Assembly (NCBI GenBank): GCA_947624305.1
Contig: CANQKC010000004.1
Span: forward strand, 1 to 64,000
Reading direction: 5' to 3'
Length of the DNA: 64,000 bases
Source of the DNA: an uncultured Monoglobus sp.
GTDB lineage: Bacteria > Bacillota > Clostridia > Monoglobales > Monoglobaceae
The translations under genes were made by a program, and so were the position numbers. The stretch's first letter is position 1, and every line of letters starts with the position of its first letter. Positions 63,156 through 63,934 of this stretch are shown in pieces. Under the pieces are notes generated by a model that had not been told where the DNA came from, searched no databases, and worked only from the letters and a program-made list of their open reading frames with translations.

Positions 63156-63239
63156 AAAAAATCATCCTCTCCGGCGAAAGCCGATAAAATATACATAAAA
63201 ACATTATAGCACTACTTTTTACCCTTGTCAACAGCGGAG

Positions 63240-63283
63240 TTTGCGCGCGCCGGAATAGTGTGTTTGCGCGCGCCGGAATAGTG
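63240..63283. repeat. Two direct repeats of TTTGCGCGCGCCGGAATAGTG
   Basis: 21-bp identical copies at 63240-63260 and 63263-63283, separated by 2 bp (23-bp period). They lie between the CorC gene and the feo promoter. Confidence 0.8.
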
Positions 63284-63355: not shown

Positions 63356-63384
63356 TTGACAAATATAGTTAGTCGTGGTAAACT
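63356..63384 (+). promoter_or_regulatory. feo promoter
   Basis: Perfect TTGACA (63356-63361), 17 bp, TAAACT (63379-63384). The spacer contains AGTTAGTC, a half-site like those of the box just downstream, and GGCTAACTA occurs upstream at about 63305-63313. Confidence 0.8.
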
Positions 63385-63392
63385 TTTAACAG

Positions 63393-63411
63393 TTAGTCAA
63401 GCCTAACTTAA
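63393..63411 (+). promoter_or_regulatory. DtxR/IdeR-like iron box
   Basis: TTAGTCAAGCCTAACTTAA matches the 19-bp IdeR/DtxR-family consensus TTAGGTTAGSCTAACCTAA at 15 of 19 positions. It covers the expected transcription start of the feo promoter, so a metal-loaded DtxR-type repressor would block it. The regulator is not in the window. Confidence 0.65.
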
Positions 63412-63439
63412 TTCTTTTGTTTGTTCCAACCCCGCAGCG

Positions 63440-63712
63440 GGTGAGACTTTCGCGTTTGCGCGGAAGCGAACAAGCGTAGGGAATAAGCAGGGCTCCCAAA
63501 AAGCGCCAGCGAAGCGCACTTTTTGGGAAAAGGAGTAGCATCGTAAATAAACATGCCGGTGGCACGTTTTAGATGCGATTGAGGCGCGGGAGCGCCGGAC
63601 ATAAAAAGCAATAATGGAGTGAAACGGAATTATTGCTACAAATGAATAACCCGCAGCGATGAGCAAAAGCAGTATGAGGCTTTTGTGATAAGCGGAGAAA
63701 TTTGCGACGTGG
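63440..63712 (+). ncRNA. Multi-hairpin leader upstream of feoA (candidate structured RNA)
   Basis: At least six hairpins follow one another: TTCGC/GCGAA (63449-63470); CCCAAAAAGCGC with GCGC-ac-TTTTTGGG (63495-63527); GCATC/GATGC enclosing AAAC-a-TGCC-ggt-GGCA-c-GTTT (63538-63576); GGCGC-ggga-GCGCC (63583-63596); AGCAATAAT/ATTATTGCT (63607-63637); and CCGC/GCGG enclosing CAAAAGC/GCTTTTG (63651-63695). The leader runs from the iron-box promoter to the feoA ribosome site. No known riboswitch family was recognised. No coding frame here looks real. Confidence 0.5.
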
Positions 63713-63724
63713 GGGGTGAATTTT

Positions 63725-63934
63725 ATGCCGTTATCAATGATGAATATCGGAGAGCGGGGCAAGGTCGTTAAAATAAACGGAAAGGACGAAACACGCCGCT
63801 TTCTGGAAAATCTCGGCTTTGTGCAAGGGAGCGAGGTCACGGTCGTGTCCGAAATATCGGGCAATATGATCGTCGACGTGAAAGACACACGCGTCGCCAT
63901 TGACAGATCAATGGCCAACCGCATTGTGGTGTAA
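63725..63934 (+). CDS. feoA: FeoA-family ferrous iron transport protein
   Basis: 69 residues, an SH3-like FeoA domain: PLSMMNIGERGKVVKINGKDETRRFLENLGFVQGSEVTVV, then V-D-V-K-D-T-R-V-A-I-D and MANRIVV. FeoA assists the FeoB iron permease. A GTG at 63716 is in frame, but the ATG at 63725 follows GGGGGG by about 8 nt. It is the first gene after the iron-box promoter and the hairpin leader. Confidence 0.9.
   Translation: MPLSMMNIGERGKVVKINGKDETRRFLENLGFVQGSEVTVVSEISGNMIVDVKDTRVAIDRSMANRIVV

Follow-up and report, generated by a model that had tools for sequence, protein, structure and literature searches.

Hairpins between an iron-box promoter and feoA in an uncultured Monoglobus sp. are probably copies of a mobile palindromic element of Clostridia

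The window analysed here is a stretch of 64,000 nucleotides from an uncultured Monoglobus sp., which carries near its 3' end a feoA gene on the plus strand (63725-63934, start codon ATG at 63725; Pfam PF04023, FeoA, E 1.7e-18), followed in tandem by a second FeoA-domain gene (G000:C4:63995-64204, G000 being the genome of the window). Upstream of feoA, the plus-strand sequence contains a promoter composed of TTGACA at 63356-63361, a 17 nt spacer and TAAACT at 63379-63384. A DtxR/IdeR-like box lies behind it at 63393-63411; it agrees with the DtxR consensus at 15 of 19 positions on the minus strand and is the top-scoring site in the window. Consecutive stem-loops then extend from 63427 to 63709, between the promoter and feoA, and directly behind the last of them a G-rich run on the plus strand (63711-63716) is the probable Shine-Dalgarno sequence of feoA, as judged from its letters; the same juxtaposition of element terminus and G-rich run was found at other genes. 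A run of stem-loops with purine-rich linkers behind a consensus promoter and an iron box had been described by an earlier sequence-only reading, and all of these features are present. The fold of 63356-63740 reached -122.2 kcal/mol compared to -104.8 ± 4.7 kcal/mol in 100 shuffled sequences (z -3.69), none of which was as good. A search of the window with Rfam 15 yielded no match at the gathering score and only two snoRNA matches at E 5.1 and 8.5. Further upstream of the promoter, a perfect tandem direct repeat with a 22-nt unit (GTTTGCGCGCGCCGGAATAGTG) and a period of 23 occupies 63239-63283; single copies related to this unit are present in two other genomes of the genus (G006 and G010).

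A covariance model of the repeat family described below (R1) produced three matches in the window, all in the feo leader and all in sense orientation (63431-63482, 63489-63580 and 63601-63709), and the modules named in the following all lie on the plus strand. The first match (40.7 bits, model positions 53-104) belongs to a fragment of the P2 hairpin module, termed X, at 63427-63482 with the arrangement CAACCCCGCAGCGGGTGAGAC-hairpin-GCGAACAAGCGTAGGGA. Similar copies occur elsewhere in the same genome, and the X module is found at the same place of the leader in G006 and in a shortened form in G010. The second match (45.7 bits) opens with the 5' frame and the P1 hairpin belonging to a second element at 63489-63535 (AGGGCTCCC-hairpin-GGGAAAAGGAG), the leader stretch with the most matches in its own genome, and runs into the C module, a three-hairpin unit (GTAGCATCG...TTATTGCTAC) which occupies the usual P2 place at 63535-63639. 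Copies of the C module with 86-93% identity are present in G004, G005, G009 and G011; comparing the leader with its own genome revealed no second copy beyond about 20 nt. The third match (29.6 bits, with a poor fit in its 5' half) ends at 63709 and represents a D variant of the P2 module at 63650-63709 (CCCGCAGCGATGAGC-hairpin-GATAAGCGGAGAAATTTGCGACG), which carries a CGACG terminus at its end; this part of the leader (positions 297-358) recurs in the own genome and in the genus. Folded singly, the modules showed modest z values of -1.9 to -3.8, with -3.8 for the C module region at 63536-63646. With its cut-down and nested copies, the leader is a mosaic and not one designed RNA: what had been taken for a six-hairpin leader very probably combines one rarer module with members of a single modular repeat family, present in at least three whole or partial copies. 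These copies would have been inserted, partly into each other, between the iron-box promoter and the feoA Shine-Dalgarno sequence. Nesting of this kind is also a property of the small dispersed repeats (SDRs) of cyanobacteria.

Many dispersed copies were found in the genome itself. A BLAST search with the leader returned 51 matches at E values up to 10, including the leader, and 29 of the others were below 1e-3; the best 19 of these 29 ranged from 6.9e-18 to 2.5e-7. The good matches nearly all fall on the leader stretches around positions 72-127, 132-180 and 297-358, and they are often clustered (e.g., on contigs C29, C38, C10, C31, C28, C59 and C60). With the covariance model, at least 40 matches in 26 arrays were obtained. 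The hairpins are therefore scattered over the genome, an outcome which the sequence-only reading had named as speaking against its regulatory proposal, and its alternative, a structured RNA or repeat family not yet classified, proved to be right.

We compared the feo leaders of eight genomes of the same genus (G002, G003, G004, G005, G006, G009, G010 and G011) and one of another genus (G022), leaving out G001, G007 and G008. The promoter and operator are kept in all eight species and partly in G022, with 83-98% identity at leader positions 1-56 across the eight, and the box persists in relatives where the hairpins do not. This conserved part of the leader fits ordinary transcriptional iron control. 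The distance from TTGACA to the ATG amounts to 369 nt in the window vs. 95-300 nt in the eight other species. In G002, G009 and G011, the modules are absent, leaving leaders of 95 nt which retain a short inverted repeat. The remaining five leaders contain differing assemblies, namely a shortened P2 module in G010 (125 nt; seen solely as DNA matches to leader positions 1-86 and 336-357), one P2 module in G006 (152 nt), P1 together with D in G003 (179 nt), and further assemblies in G004 (190 nt) and G005 (300 nt). Model R1, applied to these leaders at E values up to 0.01, matched in G003, G004, G005 and G006 and gave no match in G002, G009, G010, G011 and G022. With three of eight leaders free of modules and the other five differently assembled, the structure is not conserved across orthologous feo leaders. 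Modules are absent or rebuilt where promoter and box stay, which is the behaviour of an insertion-prone leader and not of a conserved regulatory RNA.

A similar distribution was observed upstream of glmM, where the element is present in the genome of the window and in G003, G005, G006, G009 and G011 and missing in G001, G002, G004, G007, G008 and G010 (six of 12 genus genomes each). In G003, the element touches the ATG of glmM, and the 3' arm of P2 supplies the likely Shine-Dalgarno sequence. The empty leaders of G002, G004 and G010 contain AAAGGAATTTGTGACG, AAAGGGATTTGTGACG or GCGGAGGATTTGCGACG just before the ATG; this stretch is similar to a P2 3' arm and possibly a remnant of one that has become the ribosome-binding site.

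The full element comprises about 100-120 nt and consists of a 5' AGGGCTCCC, the P1 hairpin, the linker GGGAAAGAGGAG, the P2 hairpin and a 3' CGACG. The linker reads exactly GGGAAAGAGGAG in 115 of 138 copies, a set which is enriched for GGGAAAGAGGAG by the search pattern. Analysing 27 copies with RNAalifold yielded 27 base pairs, 17 of which show double changes. In an alignment of 119 matches to R1 from 78 loci, 95.7% of the cells were paired, all 27 pairs showed double changes, and 766 double-change cells were counted vs. a mean of 196 in shuffled alignments (0 of 500 as high), with 36-54% paired in slid controls; these values lean towards the model, because the alignment was fitted to it. We therefore also used a model-free count on 138 copies which had been picked without a pairing criterion. 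The five basal pairs of P2 were paired in 80% of cases vs. 48% with the arms swapped, and when only one copy per distinct P2 arm was kept (50 arms), the paired fraction was 0.78 vs. 0.46 after swapping (maximum 0.53). The palindromic structure is thus conserved by covariation as well as by the model-free arm test. Compensatory changes, which the earlier reading had asked for in homologous leaders, are abundant in the dispersed copies and at a locus within RNase P RNA, and there are none in a feo-specific structure. The P1 and P2 hairpins are replaced wholesale between lineages, and the purine-rich frame stays constant across Clostridia. This is illustrated by the leader of a tRNA-Ala gene in three genomes (L085, L139 and L162), where the same frame and a near-identical downstream flank enclose different hairpins. 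P1 and P2 do not form an inverted pair of one REP, and the ends of the element (AGGG... and ...CGACG) are not inverted repeats, as they would be in a MITE in the strict sense.

The element is widespread in the genus and beyond. Searching 100 related genomes with the leader gave some match in 85 of them at E values up to 1, with the strong ones concentrated in the same genus. Model R1 (E up to 0.01) detected the element in all 12 genus genomes with at least 5 to at least 59 matches each, the numbers being lower bounds because 150 candidates were scored per genome: at least 40 in G000, 17 in G001, 24 in G002, 32 in G003, 43 in G004, 21 in G005, 44 in G006, 35 in G007, 5 in G008, 59 in G009, 39 in G010 and 55 in G011. 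In a survey of the class Clostridia with stricter filters (E up to 1e-4, 12 candidates scored per genome, and hence again lower bounds), at least 58 of 291 genomes from 40 of 179 genera carried the element, seven of these 58 belonging to the same genus. The frame pattern was found in at least 112 stretches of a genome collection, among them Ructibacterium, Christensenella, Candidatus Borkfalkia, Ruminococcus and Dysosmobacter; two matches in archaeal MAGs were taken for chance. A plasmid or phage vehicle was rejected, as one element copy searched against plasmid and phage collections yielded no match and the frame pattern occurred in two viral contigs only. Rfam assigned no family to the leader of the window or to ten carrier loci beyond the neighbouring structural RNAs.

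Most of the arrays (148 of 151) lie outside of genes called by a simple gene caller, and two of the three exceptions lie in archaeal MAGs and were taken for chance matches of the pattern. Where both neighbouring genes were known, 41 arrays were oriented in sense to both and 11 in antisense to both; the corresponding p value of 3.6e-5 is too small, because orthologous loci were counted. The genome of the window alone shows five sense and two antisense arrays, which is not significant. Both these orientation counts and the junction counts below include many loci that are orthologues in related species, so that the counts are not independent.

For the analysis of the 3' junctions, we used 121 of 160 arrays which showed a recognisable terminus and dropped the other 39. 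The next downstream feature was a tRNA in 18 of the 121 arrays, and the CGACG end was located 0-4 nt from the tRNA on either strand in 14 of these 18. Seven of the 14 junctions abut the 5' end of a tRNA read in the same direction (four tRNA-Pro, two tRNA-Ala and one tRNA-Ser, partly representing one locus in several species) and the other seven the CCA end of a tRNA on the opposite strand. Of nine junctions with the element antisense to a tRNA, seven are within 1 nt; the nearest upstream tRNA in the survey is 34 nt from an array. Among 48 arrays with a co-directional gene downstream, the called start codon follows at 16-33 nt past a Shine-Dalgarno-like stretch in 11 cases (including three feoA and three glmM leaders) and is closer in two. 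Other stable RNAs confirmed by Rfam are approached as narrowly, as observed for 5S rRNA (1 and 2 nt; L010 and L125), 23S rRNA in G008 (2 nt; L246, with L247 and L248 showing the same copy and 23S start), tmRNA (4 nt; L154) and RNase P RNA (within 1-2 nt; L005, L178 and L266). The 16S rRNA start in L176 is far off, at 208 nt from the element. The three copies upstream of 23S rRNA in G008 are identical, and that of L246 is located downstream of tRNA genes. A parS motif lies 0 and 1 nt from the terminus in L262 and L259, respectively. At both loci, which come from two genomes (G119 and G042 among the carriers), the motif is the exact TGTTTCACGTGAAACA (L262:842-857 and L259:720-735). Of the 26 arrays in the genome of the window, eight stand next to a called stable RNA (at up to 5 nt) or a start codon (at up to 30 nt; feoA and glmM), six of them with a CGACG-type terminus and the other two as ends of model matches without it. 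The sequences flanking 126 junctions (after removing duplicates and array-internal junctions) show a preference for A followed by C or T on the 5' side (A-Y); on the 3' side, G is never the first base and is frequent at the second and third (H-N-G). With regard to a target-site duplication, these flanks show preferences of this kind only. A 3' flank containing GG was found in 45% of the junctions vs. 11% at control positions; parS and certain further sites depart from this pattern.

Two Clostridia MAGs carry the element within RNase P RNA itself (L083:223-336 and L158:1843-1956), where it is located in the loop of a peripheral stem, which we take to be P12, of a class A RNase P RNA that is otherwise of full length. 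The insertion point is after model position 136 in both cases, and common descent of the two copies was inferred from this identity. Both copies are 114 nt long and differ in 14 columns. Six of their 42 pairs are changed on both sides and still paired, and one is changed on one side; as only two sequences are compared, the shuffle control for these double changes is weak (4 and 10 of 500 as high), and slid controls gave 0 or 1. This suggests that the structure is kept by selection where the element is part of RNase P RNA and that the element is more than inert junk.

Several explanations of the hairpins in the feo leader were weighed against this evidence. The sequence-only reading had proposed a second layer of iron control, which would take the form of a feo-specific cis-regulatory RNA such as a metal riboswitch. 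A long stable fold directly between the iron-box promoter and feoA and the sense orientation of the three model matches would suit such an RNA. NiCo (czcD) and other metal riboswitches are structured RNAs in the leaders of metal-transport genes; the element differs from them in lacking an Rfam match and in a structure which is not kept at orthologous feo leaders. An iron riboswitch was rejected, because the orthologous leaders are empty or differently filled, with the same promoter and box retained in the three species without modules and the five with rebuilt ones, and the hairpins recur throughout the genome and beside unrelated genes as well as those for tRNA, rRNA and RNase P RNA. We consider this explanation extremely unlikely. 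A more general cis-acting RNA, selected in transcribed spacers (e.g., for RNase III processing, transcript stabilisation or antitermination) and spread by recombination with mobility being secondary, is possible but doubtful. It would account for the sense bias of 41 vs. 11 arrays, the copies beside 23S, 5S, tRNA, tmRNA and RNase P RNA, the compensatory changes at the common RNase P site, and the purine-rich frame kept across lineages. However, the junction is just as sharp in antisense to tRNA and beside parS, which is a DNA site, so that an RNA role is not needed; moreover, the element is absent at feo and glmM in several species and its hairpin sequences swap freely.

Old repeats that multiplied by plain tandem duplication and ectopic gene conversion, without any transposition, would explain the head-to-tail arrays, the differing copy numbers at one locus defined by its flanks (L011 in the genome of the window, L064 of G006, and L172) and the swapping of modules at the tRNA-Ala leader, where the frame is fixed. 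This is unlikely, because the copies occupy many sites which are unrelated in position and flanks and yet show a consistent 3' junction, and because the element is present in 40 of 179 genera. Finally, the short intergenic palindromes and their arrays, together with Y1 transposases in the genome of the window and in G006, recall REP/REPIN-type repeats moved by a Y1 (RAYT/TnpA-REP) transposase. Y1 genes were detected in two of 12 genus genomes vs. the element in all 12; in the class, 178 of the 291 genomes have one. Assuming that the surveys of Y1 and of the element drew on the same genomes, a hand count placed Y1 in 33 of 58 carriers vs. 145 of 233 non-carriers. Because Y1 does not track with the element, it does not explain it, and with P1 and P2 lacking the form of an inverted REP pair, we rejected this very unlikely assignment.

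According to passages of PMC3049150, the BOX elements of Streptococcus pneumoniae are small, mostly intergenic and modular, with a variable number of internal modules and stem-loops predicted when transcribed, and one BOX is part of a composite RNA with T box riboswitches. The element resembles BOX as a small modular intergenic repeat with stem-loops, a likeness in organisation alone. BOX has terminal boxA and boxC modules with inverted ends like an insertion sequence in the description of PMC3049150, unlike the ends of our element, which also differs in a frame constant across many genera, in hypervariable hairpins and in a 3' end abutting functional sites. REPs and REPINs, as characterised in parts of PMC3116915 and PMC6006769, are likewise short palindromic intergenic repeats, single or clustered, and probably moved in trans. 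Canonical REPs have the foot GT[AG]G, and REPINs consist of two copies in inverted orientation and are linked with a Y1 gene (same sources), whereas the element has two dissimilar hairpins, AGGG...CGACG ends and no association with Y1. ERIC and Correia elements are transcribed palindromic insertions able to alter mRNA processing, again by the account in PMC3049150; they are found in other hosts and resemble our element by this description. The element is therefore a small interspersed palindromic element which we do not file under BOX, REPIN or strict MITE.

The reading that we prefer, with a probability of about 0.85, is that of a non-autonomous mobile palindromic element (MITE/BOX/REP-like) whose copies make up the feo leader, which is then not an iron sensor. 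Its observed part consists of the dispersal, the modularity, the empty and filled orthologous sites, the covariation, the intergenic placement, the sense bias and the sharp 3' junction; mobility itself is most likely, judged from the dispersal and the presence and absence between species. The element would be moved by a putative enzyme acting in trans, with its 3' terminus settling at the edge of functional sequences. Copies in transcribed leaders may be tolerated because their RNA folds into closed hairpins, and the hairpins may be exchanged as modules between copies by ectopic exchange, with the short frame retained. The insertions upstream of feoA leave the Shine-Dalgarno sequence intact and may affect the stability or translation of the leader. 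Other small repeats are reported to have such effects in the part of PMC3049150 that treats them. Any effect on feo expression would here be a side effect of insertion, and an iron-sensing role is not supported.

Tentatively, and with a probability that we place well below even, the data may point to a widespread and so far undescribed class of minimal mobile elements in Clostridia, each recognised by its short single-stranded frame and not by its hairpins. The CGACG end of such an element would be placed exactly at functional boundaries (tRNA 5' or CCA ends, 5S, 23S, tmRNA, RNase P RNA, parS or Shine-Dalgarno sequences) by a mechanism unlike those of known transposon classes, and a functioning RNase P RNA could harbour the element, whose own structure would be maintained by compensatory changes. 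It is unusual for a junction to be this exact at the boundaries of tRNA, rRNA, RNase P, parS and Shine-Dalgarno sequences, which raises a testable question of how such a small element chooses its site. We found no paper naming the element in the open-access literature searched exclusive of supplements; it may be included among the 3161 structured RNA candidates reported in PMC8040213. The analysis removes a false riboswitch candidate and puts a large uncatalogued family of structured repeats in its place. This family will continue to yield false candidates for regulatory RNAs in gut Clostridia, and the covariance model and frame can be used to mask or annotate such genomes.

Some further observations concern the surroundings of the copies. 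Spacers of the genus (L013, L222 and others) are packed with additional repeats, such as CTAATCACTA-type tandem tracts and those of the GTAGGGGCGGATATTATCCGCCC and CCCCTCTCAGTC... types, and such families inflate leaders like that of glmM. The element-free glmM leaders L219 (G010), L221 (G004) and L223 (G002) have a GGAGG-ATTTGCGACG-like stretch at their end, just before the ATG. In the genome of the window, an apparent family of repeated small ORFs is preceded by a variant of the element (C3:20518, C34:1028, C34:1810 and C25:38897), and about 240 nt of the unit downstream of this variant recur without the element in many genus genomes. Another copy (C1:52813) is located upstream of a reading frame which looks like that of a serine recombinase by inspection only (L289:1501-2700), and a 3' flank of the same type was seen again at C14:56558. 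In L245, L098 and L164, a phage-like region contains, in repeated form, alternative 3' cassettes for a single large protein gene; several of these cassettes share a common truncated start, and the element is placed between them like punctuation.
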